This document shows, piece by piece, positions 37,163 to 43,516 of a stretch of 64,000 nt of DNA. Source of the DNA: Bacillus sp. ISL-51 (lineage in GTDB: Bacteria; Bacillota; Bacilli; Bacillales; Bacillaceae); contig NZ_JAGGQB010000002.1 of NCBI RefSeq assembly GCF_018613535.1, positions 1 through 64,000 of the forward strand, in the 5' to 3' direction. The stretch's first letter is position 1. Every line of letters begins with the position of its first letter. Both the position numbers and the translations under genes were made by a program. Under the pieces are notes generated by a model. It searched no databases. It was given only the letters and a program-made list of their open reading frames with translations, and had not been told where the DNA came from.

Positions 37163-38980
37163 TTACGATTGATGAAACTGGCTTTCGTATAACTCATTGT
37201 AAAAGCCTTTTTGCTTCAGAAGTTCGGCATGGCTTCCTTTTTCAGCCATTTCTCCGTCCTTCAACACAAGAATCTGATCGGCTCTTTGAATCGTGTTCAG
37301 CCTGTGGGCGATGATGACGCTTGTTCTGCCCTCCATTAAACGGCCGAGCGCTTCTTGTATTTTCACTTCTGTCACTGTATCAATGTTGCTTGTCGCTTCA
37401 TCCAATATCAAGAGAACCGGGTCTGCCAAAACAGCCCTCGCAATAGAAATGAGCTGCTTTTGTCCTTGGCTGATTCCGGCTCCGTTTTGGGTAAGAACCG
37501 TATCATAGCCTTTCGGCAGCCGTTCAATGAAGCTGTGGGCATTGGCTGCTTTTGCGGCTTCCTCTACCTCTTGGTCAGATGCGTCCAGACGTCCGTAGCG
37601 GATATTCTCCCTGATTGTGCCCTGGAACAGAAATGAATCTTGAAGAACAAACCCCATGTTTTTTCGCAGGCTCGATCTTGTCATCTTTTTTATATCCGTG
37701 CCGTCAATGAGAATTTTTCCTTCGTTCGGTTCATAAAAGCGGGCGAGAAGGTTGGTAACAGTCGTTTTTCCCGCGCCTGTCGGACCGACAAACGCGATGG
37801 ATTGTCCCGCTGGCACTGTAAAGCTGAGGTGTTTCAGCGTCTGACTCCCTTCCTCATATCCGAAAGAGACGTGGCGGAATTCAATGGCGCCTGTTTGAAT
37901 CGGCTGATACAAGGCGTTCTTTTCATCCTCCCGTTCTTCTATTTCATCGAGCACATCGAAGACACGTTCAGCTCCTGCAATGGCAGACAACATCGTATTA
38001 AATTGGTTGGCGAGATCGTTCAAAGGGCGGGTAAACTGTCTTGAATACTCGGCGAACACCACGATTGAGCCAATCGTAATCCAGCCCTTTAACGCAAACC
38101 AACCGCCGATGGCCGCAATAATTGTAAAGCTTAGATTGTTCAACGTGTTCATCACTTTCGGGATAAAGCCGGAAATCGTCTGCGCCCAAAAGCCAGATGC
38201 CTTCAGGCTGTCGTTTTTTTCTAAAAACTCAGCGGTCACCTGTTCTTCCCGCGAATAAGCTTTGATGACCTTGGCGCCTGAAATGGATTCTTCAATATAG
38301 CCATTAAGCTCGCCAAGGTTTTTTTGCTGCTCTTTAAAAAGCTTTCCCGTACGGTTGGTGATCCATTTGATGCTGACCGCCATAATCGGCACGATGATCA
38401 GCGTGATGAGCGTCAGCAGCGGGTTCATGTACAGCATCACTGAGATTGTTCCTGCAAAGGTGATGACGCTTGATAAAATTTGGATGACCGATGTGTTTAA
38501 AGTTGAACTGACATTTTCAATATCATTCGTCACCCGGCTCATCAGCTCGCCGTGCCGCTGTTTATCGAAAAACGGAATCGGCAGCTCGTGCAAGTGGGTG
38601 AACAGCTCACTCCGCATTCTGAATACAGTGCTTTGGGAAATATTAATCATCCAATAGTTTTGAAACCATAAAGACAGGGACTGGATGACGTAGATCCCTA
38701 ACAAGCCAAGCAATACCGGAAAAAGCCCGCTTGCCGTCCGGCCGACAATAAAATGGTCGATGGCGCGGCCGATCACAATAGGCCCAAGCAAGCCAAACAC
38801 GGCACTGACCACAACCATGATCATGACAAGTGTGAGCATCCCTTTTTTCTCAGCCAAGTAGGACCACATTCTGCCTAGCGTCCCTTTGGCATCCTTTGCT
38901 TTCGTTCTTTTTTTGGAGCGGTCTTTTTGATCAATCAGTATTTTTTTATATTGGAAAGGACTACGAATGTCTTTCAGCAT
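37163..38980 (-). CDS. yfiC: YfiC, ABC exporter subunit (heterodimer partner)
   Basis: This 605-residue type I ABC exporter half has six membrane helices (about 50-340) and an ATPase domain. Walker A is GPTGAGKTT, and Walker [13 protein letters not shown] has the catalytic Glu. The signature is ISQGQ instead of LSGGQ. With YfiB's Asp in Walker B this predicts one degenerate ATP site, as in LmrCD/BmrCD heterodimers. ATG 38980 lies 20 bp inside yfiB's 3' end, so translation is coupled. The substrate is unknown. Confidence 0.92.
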   Translation of the reverse strand: MLKDIRSPFQYKKILIDQKDRSKKRTKAKDAKGTLGRMWSYLAEKKGMLTLVMIMVVVSAVFGLLGPIVIGRAIDHFIVGRTASGLFPVLLGLLGIYVIQSLSLWFQNYWMINISQSTVFRMRSELFTHLHELPIPFFDKQRHGELMSRVTNDIENVSSTLNTSVIQILSSVITFAGTISVMLYMNPLLTLITLIIVPIMAVSIKWITNRTGKLFKEQQKNLGELNGYIEESISGAKVIKAYSREEQVTAEFLEKNDSLKASGFWAQTISGFIPKVMNTLNNLSFTIIAAIGGWFALKGWITIGSIVVFAEYSRQFTRPLNDLANQFNTMLSAIAGAERVFDVLDEIEEREDEKNALYQPIQTGAIEFRHVSFGYEEGSQTLKHLSFTVPAGQSIAFVGPTGAGKTTVTNLLARFYEPNEGKILIDGTDIKKMTRSSLRKNMGFVLQDSFLFQGTIRENIRYGRLDASDQEVEEAAKAANAHSFIERLPKGYDTVLTQNGAGISQGQKQLISIARAVLADPVLLILDEATSNIDTVTEVKIQEALGRLMEGRTSVIIAHRLNTIQRADQILVLKDGEMAEKGSHAELLKQKGFYNELYESQFHQS

Positions 38981-40694
38981 GACCAGCCCCCTCCTTTCCG
39001 AATTGGGACTCGTAAATAAGCTGATACAAATGAGACTGTGACAGCAGCTCCTGATGCGTGCCTTTTTCAATCAGTTCGCCGTCTTCAAGAAGCAATATGA
39101 CATCGGCTTTCATGGCAGTGCTGACTTTTTGGGTGATGATCAGTGTTGTGCATTCATAAGCGCTGATCGCCTCAAGCAGCTTTCCTTCTGTTTGCAGGTC
39201 GAGGGCGCTTGTACTGTCATCCAATAAAAGAATGGCGGGCTTTCTGATAAAGGCTCTGGCGATGGAAATTCTTTGTTTCTGACCTCCTGACAAATTGACG
39301 CCCTTTTGCCCAAGCACCGTATCATAGCCTTTCGGGAGCTTCATAATCGTGTCATGAATTTGCGCGCTTTTGGCCGCTTCCATTACTTCATCTAGTGAAG
39401 CATTTTCTTTGCCCCAGGCGATATTTTCCCTGATCGTTCCCGAGAAGAGCAGCACTTCCTGCGGAACGTAGCCGATCTGCCTCCGAAGCCCTTCAGCCGG
39501 AAATTCGCCAATCGGCTTCCGGTCAATCAAAACCCTGCCTGAATCCGGTTTGTATAGCCGCGGAATTAACTGAAAGAGCGTTGATTTTCCTGAGCCTGTC
39601 GCTCCTAATAGCGCAATCGTTTCCTTTGGTTTTGCTGTAAAGGTTATGTGCTGAAGCGCTTCTCTTTCCATATCGGGATAGCGGAATGACACATCTTCAA
39701 AATCAATACGGCCGCTCAGCAGCTCATCCGTTTTGCCGCGCTCCCGTTCATCGCCTTCTGTCTCAAGCACCTCTCCGATTCTTTCCCCGGAAGCTTTCGC
39801 CCGTGAAAAAATCATAATCAAGAACGGAAAAACGGACAAAGCGCCTGTAATGCGTGTGGCGTAGTTAATAATCGCCACAACATCGCCGACCTGCGTACCG
39901 TTTTGTGCCGCGCTATTGGCGCCGAGCCACAAAATAAACAGAATGCATATATTCATTAACAGCATCAAAACAGGCATCGTTGCTTCAACGAGACGAAAGG
40001 CCGAGACCGTCTTTTGCATCAGTATGGTGTTTGATTTCAGAAACCGTTTGATCTCGTGGCTTCCGCGAAGCAGCGCCTTAATCAATTTGATAGCCGCCAG
40101 GTTTTCCTGCATGATGGTGTTCACTTGGTCAAGCCGTCTCTGCACAGAGCGGAACAGCGAACCCCCTTTTTTTAATACCCAAAGTAAAAACAGAATCAAA
40201 ATCGGAATCGTCACAAGCAGAAAAAAACCGAGCTTCACATTGACGGCCACTGATAAAATAACACCGCCGACAATCATTAAAGGCGCCCGAAGCATAAACC
40301 TGAGGCTCATGAAAATCATATTTTGAACCTGTGTCACGTCATTGGTCAGCCTCGTAATAAATGATGAGGAGGAAAACTGCGCAAAAGAAGAAAAAGAGAA
40401 GGACTGGATTTTTTGAAATATCCCTTTTCTCGTATCGTAAGCATAGCTTTGGCTGACATGAGCCGCATAGAAGGAATTCAGCATTCCCGCCGCAAATGAC
40501 ACCAGTGTAAGCCCGACCATTACAGCTCCCCATACCCAGACTGTCCTAAGGTCTTGTTTCAAAATCCCCTCATCTATAATTTTTGCGATAAGAAGAGGCT
40601 GCACAAGCTCTACCGCAAGCTCAGTCAGCATCAGGACAAGAGCTATCCCCGCTATCAAATAGTATGGTTTTAAGTATGATAAAGCCTTTGACAT
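38961..40694 (-). CDS. yfiB: YfiB, ABC exporter subunit (heterodimer partner)
   Basis: This 577-residue ABC exporter half has six membrane helices (about 10-290) and an ATPase domain. Walker A GATGSGKST and signature LSGGQKQR are canonical, but Walker B reads ILLLDDSTSALD, with Asp replacing the catalytic Glu. This is the mark of the inactive site in heterodimeric multidrug exporters, complementing YfiC. ATG 40694 (MSKALSYLKPY) has GGGAGG upstream. It is first in a two-gene operon. Confidence 0.92.
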   Translation of the reverse strand: MSKALSYLKPYYLIAGIALVLMLTELAVELVQPLLIAKIIDEGILKQDLRTVWVWGAVMVGLTLVSFAAGMLNSFYAAHVSQSYAYDTRKGIFQKIQSFSFSSFAQFSSSSFITRLTNDVTQVQNMIFMSLRFMLRAPLMIVGGVILSVAVNVKLGFFLLVTIPILILFLLWVLKKGGSLFRSVQRRLDQVNTIMQENLAAIKLIKALLRGSHEIKRFLKSNTILMQKTVSAFRLVEATMPVLMLLMNICILFILWLGANSAAQNGTQVGDVVAIINYATRITGALSVFPFLIMIFSRAKASGERIGEVLETEGDERERGKTDELLSGRIDFEDVSFRYPDMEREALQHITFTAKPKETIALLGATGSGKSTLFQLIPRLYKPDSGRVLIDRKPIGEFPAEGLRRQIGYVPQEVLLFSGTIRENIAWGKENASLDEVMEAAKSAQIHDTIMKLPKGYDTVLGQKGVNLSGGQKQRISIARAFIRKPAILLLDDSTSALDLQTEGKLLEAISAYECTTLIITQKVSTAMKADVILLLEDGELIEKGTHQELLSQSHLYQLIYESQFGKEGAGHAERHS

Positions 40695-40984
40695 CTGAAA
40701 GCCTCCCAAACCTGTTTATCAATATGTATATTTATTTTATTTGTTTGTCTTAAATGAATAAAGGATTAACCCTTGAACCCGCACTTTTATTATGTACTTT
40801 GTGTAAAAAAACGGAAATCACTGAAGATAAAAATTGAAGGATTGAAGCGTGTAAATATATGGAGGCTGACTTGTCTTTTCTTTTTACCAGCGCCTGAACC
40901 GGAGCCTTTTATTTTAAAATGAACTAGCGGAGCCTTTAGAAGACGTCCGCTATTCAGATGATCATTCATGCCGTGTCATTTCAT
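40695..40984. other. Non-coding gap between yfiB and the tail-spike gene
   Basis: This 290-bp gap contains the yfiB upstream region (AT-rich, 40710-40860). Two CGGAGCCTTT repeats (about 40902-40911 and 40928-40937) and an imperfect AGCGGA/TCCGCT hairpin (about 40926-40952) follow the tail-spike gene stop. No convincing ORF was seen. Confidence 0.5.
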
Positions 40985-43312
40985 TTAACGAATAAAAACG
41001 AAAGCGACCCCAAATCCTTTATCAGCATCAAACTCTTTGATCACTTTCATGACCTGCCAGCGCTGGTTTGGAGAATCGGATTTTGTTGCAATCCCGTTAT
41101 GAGCGTGAATAAAATCTCCTGCTTTCACAGTCTCATCGCATCTGACATATACCTGGCCGATAAGCCCGACAATGTTCCACTCGTCTCTCTCTTCTCTTGA
41201 AGCATAGTCTTCTTCAGGTCGAAAGTCCGGATTTTCTTTTGGAGCCATGACCATATGGCCGTTTGCATCTTTCTGTTTTTCATAAACATAGCCGCCAAAC
41301 TCATTCTTTACGTATCGTCCCGACCAGTGAAAACTCGACTCACCAAGAATCACTCCGGCAGTCTCGGAAATTACCCCAAGCATGAGATCACCTTTTTCAG
41401 CCGGTCTGATCTTATCACCTTCAAGTGTGACAAGTGTTCCTGTCGGAATCTTCTCCCCGCTCAGACTCTCAAAATACTCGGCGTAGTCAGAGAATGTCGA
41501 GGAACCTGTTACGCCTCCCGCAGCCTTAATTGTTCCTTCTTTTGCGTGAAGCTCAATTTTTCTGTTTGCCGATGACGGAGTGCTGCCGGCAGCCCAGCCA
41601 AGTGCTACAGAATCTGAATTCGGGTTAATTGTATTGTACGAAGAAAGCACTGAAGATTGAGCCGCTCCGGTTGCTCTTCCCCGAACAGAACCAGCCACAA
41701 AATTATTGTTTCCTGTAGCGTGAGATTCACGGGAGCCAATGACTCCGCTTCCTTTATGTTTGAATAAGAAATAAGGAGTGACTGCTCCTCCAATGTTAAA
41801 GTCAGTTTCATAACCTGAAAAATCACAATTGGAAACATTAAGGTCTGGATCTGAGGAATAAATTCCAACTGTCCCGCTATTATTTTTTGGAGATCTCTGT
41901 CCCCAAACATTACTAACAACAGACTCGTACATTCCGCTGCCAAAAGCAACTCCATTTTTTCCGGAGTCAATCAAGGTGACGCCATCTACCATTACTTTAC
42001 CTACTGAGTTATCCCCGCCGACAATATATAAGTCATTGTCTGCAGTCTTAAATCCGCGAATGGTTATATTCTTTAAGCTGATTAAGCGTCCTTTATAAAA
42101 TACGCTGACTACAGAATTACCCTTATAATCAATTGAACTATCATCACAAATAGCATGGAAATTCATAACACTCACACCATCATATCCGGAGATTTGCAAC
42201 GCGTTTGGTCCCGCCCCTTTGTAAAGATCATTTGGTTTAGGGTTATATGCGATACAATTCGCGAGCTGCACATCATGGGCTGTCGCTGACTGAGGATCGC
42301 TTGCTGTGTGGTGACCGATATGGCGGATGCTATATCCAATGGCATTTTCGTATGCGCGGCAGTTAACAAGCTGTACTCTCTTCGCTGCCGGTGCATAACC
42401 ATGTGCTTTAATCTCAAAGCCTCGGACTCCTCCAATTGAGATACAACTATCAATCATTACGTCTTGTGAGCCGTCATCAATTTCAAAACAGTTCGTGTTA
42501 GAAGTTCCGTCATTTAACCCCATAGGATGGTAAGAGAGGCAATGACTGAAAGTAGTGTGTTTACCAAAATGGCAAGTAAAGTTATCATCGCCGGATCCTG
42601 TTGCTTCACAATGTGAAAATGTTACAAAGTTACAGCCATTGGGCTGATAATAAGTTGGGTCGTCCATTTCACCATGTCTGTTATAGTTCGGGCTCGTAGA
42701 ATCAAAGCCGTGCAGGCCGCCGTTCTTCGCAAACACATGCTCGACAAAAGAATAGTCAACATTCGCAAAAAGCAAACAGCTTGAAGTGGGACCTTTCGGA
42801 ATCTTCCAGCCGACAGGACGCGTATCCTTGTTCCAGTCCAGCGTGAGATGGCCGACGTATATATTTTCATTACCGTTCGTGTAATCACTGTTGGTAAGAA
42901 CAGAGTGCCCTACCGGTGTTTCGTCTAATAATTTAATGACCGTTCTTTTCTTGCCTGCTCCGATAAGCATTGTATTTGACGGAACAAACAATCCCGATGT
43001 TCTGAATACACCCGCGGGAACTGTTACTACATAACCTCCGTCAGCCATAGCATCATGAAACGCTTGCGTATCATCTGTTACTCCGTCACCTTTAGCCCCA
43101 AAATCCATAACGTTTCGCTCTGTAACATGTTCAAACCTGTTTTCATACATTTTAAGTCTTTCGTTTAAGTTTTCATAAGTTGACGTGCCATCGCTAAGGG
43201 CAGCACCGATTTTGCTGTCAATCGCTTCAAAGTTTTGAGCAATGCTTTCAACTTCAACACCCTCAGTTTTATTGGGTTTGTAAAGTCCTAAGAAAGTAGT
43301 ATAGTTTGTCAT
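40985..43312 (-). CDS. Phage tail-spike-like protein: beta-helix plus peptidase G2-type C-terminal domain
   Basis: This 775-residue protein has three parts. Residues 1-65 (MTNYTTFLGLYKPNKTEGVE) resemble a virion-attachment or trimerisation head with a coiled coil. Residues 66-520 begin VMDFGAKGDGVTDDTQAF, the pectate-lyase-superfamily signature, and continue as a right-handed beta-helix. Residues about 590-775 (STFSDYAEYFESLSGEKIPTGTLVTLEGDKIRPA) match the peptidase G2 autoprocessing domain of YobO/YomR and SPbeta-like phage proteins. It is probably a trimeric polysaccharide-binding or degrading spike. No signal peptide, holin or other phage gene is adjacent. GGAGGCAGGAC precedes the ATG. Confidence 0.85.
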   Translation of the reverse strand: MTNYTTFLGLYKPNKTEGVEVESIAQNFEAIDSKIGAALSDGTSTYENLNERLKMYENRFEHVTERNVMDFGAKGDGVTDDTQAFHDAMADGGYVVTVPAGVFRTSGLFVPSNTMLIGAGKKRTVIKLLDETPVGHSVLTNSDYTNGNENIYVGHLTLDWNKDTRPVGWKIPKGPTSSCLLFANVDYSFVEHVFAKNGGLHGFDSTSPNYNRHGEMDDPTYYQPNGCNFVTFSHCEATGSGDDNFTCHFGKHTTFSHCLSYHPMGLNDGTSNTNCFEIDDGSQDVMIDSCISIGGVRGFEIKAHGYAPAAKRVQLVNCRAYENAIGYSIRHIGHHTASDPQSATAHDVQLANCIAYNPKPNDLYKGAGPNALQISGYDGVSVMNFHAICDDSSIDYKGNSVVSVFYKGRLISLKNITIRGFKTADNDLYIVGGDNSVGKVMVDGVTLIDSGKNGVAFGSGMYESVVSNVWGQRSPKNNSGTVGIYSSDPDLNVSNCDFSGYETDFNIGGAVTPYFLFKHKGSGVIGSRESHATGNNNFVAGSVRGRATGAAQSSVLSSYNTINPNSDSVALGWAAGSTPSSANRKIELHAKEGTIKAAGGVTGSSTFSDYAEYFESLSGEKIPTGTLVTLEGDKIRPAEKGDLMLGVISETAGVILGESSFHWSGRYVKNEFGGYVYEKQKDANGHMVMAPKENPDFRPEEDYASREERDEWNIVGLIGQVYVRCDETVKAGDFIHAHNGIATKSDSPNQRWQVMKVIKEFDADKGFGVAFVFIR

Positions 43313-43456
43313 TGTCCTGCCTCCTGATTTTTAATTGCTATTTAAAACACCGAACACCATAGAAGTCATTCGTTTCTGCATCATCCCCTCACTTTCGCTC
43401 CTGCATGTACAGGTGGCAAAGGTATGACAAGTTCACACATTTTTTCAAAACATAAA

Positions 43457-43484
43457 AAGAGCGCTTGGATAAACAAGCGCTCTT
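43457..43484 (-). terminator. glvC terminator
   Basis: AAGAGCGCTTG (43457-43467) and CAAGCGCTCTT (43474-43484) form a perfect 11-bp stem, with TTTTTATG following on the minus strand. Confidence 0.88.
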
Positions 43485-43516
43485 CCCATTCTGCACATAG
43501 CCTTCTGCAGCAGTAT

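Follow-up and report, generated by a model that had tools for sequence, protein, structure and literature searches.

A phage-type spike gene standing alone in a Bacillus chromosome has upstream of it the late promoter signature of the defective prophage PBSX, so the spike is probably made together with the PBSX killer particle. We consider it somewhat probable that the protein belongs to the PBSX regulon as an optional member encoded at a distance, whose distal helix is exchangeable and which is perhaps mounted on the particle. It is possible, and we hold this part more tentatively, that PBSX is a split-genome particle, in which a remote head or neck spike fired by the prophage sigma factor would act as a second specificity determinant exchanged between species. 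If this is true, the prophage does not by itself fix the adsorption target of PBSX, and a simple promoter box could serve to assign orphan 'phage' genes of Bacillus genomes. The question bears on the ways in which a defective prophage can retain or acquire parts encoded far from it. The sequence-only reading of this DNA, whose observation was confirmed and whose interpretation is partly supported, had noted neither the promoter box nor the tie to PBSX nor the swapping of alleles.

A solitary spike gene between malP and yfiB

The spike gene occupies positions 40985..43312 (minus strand) of the window, by which we mean the whole 64,000-nucleotide stretch analysed. The source genome is a 3.6-Mb Bacillus draft in 23 contigs from the B. 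amyloliquefaciens neighbourhood, and the genes flanking the spike locus point to B. siamensis as a near relative. The gene encodes 775 aa from an ATG start with no internal stop, and an AGGAGG ribosome-binding site was read by eye at 43320..43325 (minus strand). The earlier description of its product as a phage spike-like protein with a beta-helix and Peptidase_G2 was borne out by HMM, PHROG and PDB matches. In Pfam, Pect-lyase_RHGA_epim covers residues 66-150 (E 1.4e-15) and Peptidase_G2 covers residues 554-775 (E 1.1e-80); PHROG 4775, 'pre-neck appendage protein', matches with E 6.9e-206, and among PDB sequences phi29 gp12 is matched with E about 1e-125. The order of an RHGA/pectate-lyase-type beta-helix followed by a Peptidase_G2 domain places the spike in the phi29 gp12 / Peptidase_G2 family.

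The protein divides into three parts, all encoded on the minus strand: an N-terminal module (residues 1-66; 43115..43312) common to Bacillus phage proteins encoded beside the major capsid gene, a beta-helix (residues 67-520; 41753..43114) whose distal portion is swapped in genome G002, and a C-terminal region with Peptidase_G2 (residues 521-775; 40988..41752) and a predicted self-cleavage site at S608/D609. The self-cleavage motif SD(F/Y)AEYFES, with the cut between S and D, is present together with its E; this residue, E612, aligns with the Q of the uncleaved 3suc chain. Fragment structures of phi29 end or begin at the bond equivalent to S608/D609, and cleavage there is predicted to give products of 65.1 and 18.8 kDa. 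Of the 35 other family members, at least 33 agree in 127 columns, and 111 of these columns are identical across all five spikes found. The AlphaFold model has a mean pLDDT of 67.4; the beta-helix (~64-512) is mostly confident, while confidence is low at residues 1-58, where the N-terminal module is modelled as two helices, and in much of the C-terminal region. The top fold matches of the model were the gp12 structures 3suc, 3gq7 and 3gq8, with TM-scores of 0.55-0.71. A simple hydropathy scan near the N-terminus found no signal-peptide-like hydrophobic segment.

The beta-helix, Peptidase_G2 domain, cleavage motif and overall fold are thus common to the spike and phi29 gp12 (PDB 3suc, 3gq7, 3gqh, 6qz9), whereas the spike has another N-terminus, is 36% identical and stands alone in a bacterial chromosome. 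The gp12 protein of phi29 binds and degrades teichoic acid. By the family mechanism and the conserved residues, the spike would trimerise and its Peptidase_G2 domain would then cut itself off at S608/D609; the mature beta-helix trimer would bind, and probably hydrolyse, a cell-wall polymer such as wall teichoic acid, like phi29 gp12.

The spike is flanked by malP on one side and by the ABC exporter gene yfiB on the other. Its solitary position between metabolic operons, as proposed earlier, holds: none of the 10 neighbouring ORFs scanned is phage-like, all having metabolic, transport or regulatory functions, there are no tRNA genes in the window, and repeats in the window are just short two-copy ones. 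An Rfam search gave no match, and sigma-70 and terminator scans near the spike gene scored at about shuffle level; a terminator-like hairpin after malP (43455..43485, minus strand) was read by eye and is absent from the terminator scan list. Comparison with G016 and G040, whose malP-yfiB sites are empty, gave an insert of ~2.75 kb (approximately 40767..43516) with no visible scar. Among 44 genus genomes surveyed, yfiB was found above threshold in 18, of which the 1.5 kb upstream was inspected; it held malP in 13/17 and the spike in 4/17, and neither in the eighteenth genome, G008. In all four genomes with the spike at this locus, malP lies upstream of the spike. The spike site is a single-gene insertion, found at an identical position between host genes in four species. 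The fifth intact spike, in G028, sits at another locus; there the PBSX late promoter follows after 10.7 kb, beyond MFS, TetR and other host-type genes (assigned by eye). Tail genes directly beside the spike in close relatives would have indicated prophage decay, but host genes flank it in the four species, and in G028 host-type genes separate it from the PBSX late promoter. Prophage decay was rejected because the spike is under selection, the empty site is clean and phage genes are lacking among its neighbours.

The promoter box and the link to PBSX

The Xpf-type (PBSX late promoter) box TGTCATACCTTTGCCA lies at 43414..43429 (minus strand) and starts 117 bp before the spike ATG. We defined the box as a 16-mer with any base allowed at position 9. 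The genome has only three exact copies: one upstream of the spike, one between a sigma-like gene and a terminase gene, and one upstream of ybfG. At the second place the gene before the box matches PHROG 1190 (E 1.1e-51) and Sigma70 region 4, and the box is followed by a terminase small subunit gene, a tail sheath gene and other genes; we take the two flanking genes to be xpf and xtmA of PBSX. The two features by which we would recognise a member of the PBSX late (Xpf) regulon, an Xpf-type box upstream of the gene and xpf with PBSX structural genes in the same genome, were both found. The spike box is of the kind that marks the PBSX late promoter, and it favours one idea of the sequence-only reading, namely a tailocin that draws the spike and other parts from separate loci.

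In PBSX biology, the early genes are released upon DNA damage, Xpf is then produced, and Xpf activates the late operon. A 1994 paper on PBSX regulation reportedly includes promoter mapping. The spike shares its box with this Xpf-controlled operon and lies outside the prophage. Upon DNA damage, release of the early genes would result in synthesis of the sigma-like factor Xpf, which would act on the PBSX structural operon and on the distant spike gene alike, through the box TGTCATACnTTTGCCA. In their accessible parts, PMC10141391, PMC9836290, PMC4670728 and PMC4243946 describe Xpf as a positive control or sigma-like factor of PBSX. The open literature that we searched, as far as accessible and with subscription papers and SubtiWiki outside its scope, gave no report of a remote PBSX spike or of any PBSX regulon gene encoded away from the prophage.

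We detected TGTCATACnTTTGCCA upstream of all five intact spikes, with one mismatch in B. atrophaeus and with G028 included despite its other locus. Across 44 genomes the box with up to one mismatch gave 69 matches, versus 7 for a reversed control; a 20-mer consisting of the box and CCTA, which does not cover the B. atrophaeus spike site, gave 50 matches in 80 genomes, versus 0 for its control. The box starts 2-35 bp past the xpf stop in 24/24 loci, which were picked because they hold both xpf and the box; two of these loci are from another genus and have other genes downstream. A matrix built from 19 xtmA promoters only (8 distinct 32-mers) ranked the spike site as the top site in the window, with 24.7 bits against 2.5 for the next, and its maxima on 20 simulated megabases ranged from 2.4 to 15.6. 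The ybfG site (35.3 bits) and the G028 spike site (34.1) scored higher; the spike site of the source genome is weaker because bases past the 16-mer differ. Most sites whose surroundings were retrieved lie before xtmA or ybfG, and some lie before genes without assignment. In G030, six of the seven box matches are one variant that, where retrieved, lies inside a gp12-family gene, so these matches are not promoters. Many of the contigs among the exact box matches listed from IMG/VR have no evident relation, and by our own estimate chance alone could give ~100 matches there; this search was left out of the evidence.

In G066, from another genus, the box follows xpf at two loci with differing downstream genes (L302:726 and L303:804). 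In two genomes (L118:1501 and L145:1501) a box with one mismatch lies 58 bp upstream of a gene for a 302-aa XlyA/XlyB-like amidase, identified by eye. Loci L153, L154, L156, L157 and L159 have the box before small unassigned genes, which may be further remote members or chance.

The presence of the PBSX sheath gene was compared with the state of the spike. The sheath gene was found in 38/44 genomes, including 5/5 genomes with an intact spike and 0/2 with a decayed one (G027 and G007), an association of sheath gene absence with spike decay (Fisher p 0.048) whose decayed class is n = 2 genomes. Since 33/38 sheath-positive genomes are without an intact spike of this clade, the spike is optional and PBSX does not need it. 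Both G027 and G007 have only spike pieces, in a neighbourhood similar to that of G028, with the box kept at one mismatch; in G027 lysis-type genes, judged by eye, come after the xpf-box pair in place of head and tail genes. This reduced PBSX region (L150, G027:C2:386000-405900) keeps regulatory genes, xpf and the box in a genome without the sheath gene, and the genes after the box are glycerophosphodiesterase-, holin- and amidase-like by eye. Co-regulation of the spike with PBSX is well supported by the sequence evidence.

The third exact copy of the box in the source genome makes ybfG a candidate for a second remote member of the PBSX regulon. YbfG of this genome has Ybfg_C, glycoside-hydrolase-like and peptidoglycan-binding domains. 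The ybfG-type genes with the box occur in at least eight genomes, mostly with the box 57 bp before the ATG (L117:7282-9546, that is G000:C22:65281, and L119, L123, L134, L144, L158, L166 and L304). The head spikes GhsA/GhsB of the Rhodobacter capsulatus gene transfer agent are encoded off the main cluster under a shared regulator. By analogy, the spike and ybfG may form a prophage regulon scattered across the chromosome of the host; the likeness to GhsA/GhsB lies in the remote layout of spikes of a domesticated particle, whereas organism, proteins and regulator are unrelated.

Possible mounting on the particle and other readings of the spike

Residues 1-67 of the spike match 8 Bacillus phage records with E values of 5e-9 or better to 6e-9, versus E 0.7 for 4 unrelated Yersinia phage records. 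Among the 44 genus genomes this N-terminal module is limited to the five spikes, and in both phage records inspected a gene with the module lies directly after the major capsid gene. The peptidase G2 proteins of Bacillus phages 268TH004, 276BB001 and their kin match spike residues 1-775, N-terminus included, at 42.7% identity, and a gene of this type sits between the major capsid and head-to-tail adaptor genes in a phage structural operon. According to the accessible part of PMC10674732, the first ~50 residues are common to two alternative proteins of the Bacillus phages, as expected of an attachment module. A virion-attachment-type N-terminus, the putative attachment head of the earlier reading, is plausible from these phage matches, while likeness to PBSX proteins was not part of the picture: residues 1-68 showed no resemblance to 40 PBSX-region ORFs (best E 2.5), a result that is strong in neither direction, as tail appendages need not share an N-terminus. 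Since the N-terminus is of a capsid-adjacent type, the head or neck is preferred over the tail tip. We infer that the spike may mount on the PBSX head or neck, where it would add to, or alter, what the particle adsorbs to.

A rather unlikely alternative is that the spike is made with PBSX but never mounted on the particle: PBSX lysis would free it to act as a soluble hydrolase of wall polymers or as a phage or particle decoy. The identical promoter evidence applies to this reading; ybfG, with its peptidoglycan-binding and glycoside-hydrolase-like product, has the same box, and the spike N-terminus is unlike PBSX proteins. PBSX proteins, YbfG and the YobO paralogue all occur in the culture fluid of strain L-17: the accessible part of PMC12020853 names XkdK, XkdM, XkdG, XkdV, XlyA, YbfG and a YobO-type peptidase G2, and its authors invoke lysis for part of the extracellular proteins. 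This finding fits release through PBSX lysis, but its peptidase G2 is the paralogue YobO. What a free enzyme would hardly need is the phage capsid-adjacent N-terminus, which is conserved with a dN/dS of 0.04-0.17 among the four species sharing the locus.

Earlier reports of peptidase G2 were considered as records of the spike. The extracellular 'peptidase G2' of L-17 was rejected, being 81% identical to B. subtilis 168 YobO in the accessible part of PMC12020853. The 'Peptidase G2' in the antimicrobial protein fraction of strain D39 (PMC12195296, Table 5, the source being accessible in part) was rejected as well: its 86,631 Da equal the mass of the G002 YobO (86.63 kDa) and not that of the spike (83.9 kDa). 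Having the mass of YobO, the D39 protein is likely to be a spike of phage type and not a free protease. A B. subtilis natto 'Peptidase G2', reported at 55-70 kDa in the part of the source available, was set aside as evidence. Going by its gene number alone, gene0840 of B. velezensis SW5 may be a spike orthologue.

Improbable, in our view, is that the box belongs to another regulator, or that the spike has been domesticated by the host as a surface protein or depolymerase with a role of its own, its PBSX promoter likeness being incidental. Binding of Xpf to the box is something we infer, some boxes stand before unassigned genes, and the paralogue YobO is without the box, yet kept in many genomes. 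However, the box follows xpf in all 24 loci picked for holding both, its exact matches in the genome are just three, and a signal-peptide-like hydrophobic segment was not found near the spike N-terminus. For the earlier suggestions of a domesticated depolymerase or adhesin, or a phage-receptor decoy, we found no positive evidence. YobO of B. subtilis is of the same family, chromosomal too and 40-43% identical to the spike, but has another N-terminus and no Xpf-type box upstream. Orthology with YobO was rejected, since a tree of 40 proteins groups the five spikes in a single clade (100/100), separate from 13 YobO proteins; the spike clade is joined to phage 268TH004 by long branches.

Selection, recombination and exchange of the distal helix

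The intact reading frame had been taken earlier to suggest selection, and substitution rates agree: the spike gene is under selection, with a dN/dS of 0.05-0.16 across the four species that have it at the malP-yfiB site, synonymous sites being saturated in the comparison with G028. The spike DNA is 94% identical to that of B. siamensis and 96% to that of B. atrophaeus, and malP is 89% and 80% identical, respectively. A ~5.5 kb tract common with B. atrophaeus comprises the spike, yfiB and part of yfiC. At window positions 38000-43500 this tract is 93-98% identical, and its flanks are ~60-85% identical. As judged from these identities, the tract is the product of recombination that carried the exporter gene yfiB along. 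In G002, spike residues ~250-600 are 54-80% identical, with blocks of 92-100% on either side, a pattern indicating that the distal helix is exchanged there between a constant N-terminus and a constant C-terminus.

Phage records matching the spike numbered 126, all with less than 60% identity and the best-ranked at 42.7%. In IMG/VR, six exact peptide patterns retrieved 42 loci, the best of which were 43% identical over most of the protein and at most 46% over part. That the spike is a phage-derived passenger cassette, spreading among Bacillus chromosomes by recombination without a present role, is very improbable: it does belong to a phage family, is present or absent between close species and lies in the tract common with B. 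atrophaeus, but the low dN/dS, the single site across four species and viral matches too distant for a recent phage gift argue against it.

Other family members were observed as well. In G037, a fragment of this family (51% identity) contains a stop and was left out of the spike clade count. Contigs C5, C6 and C7 of G030, one assembly with a listed contamination of 6%, hold six near-identical gp12-family genes.
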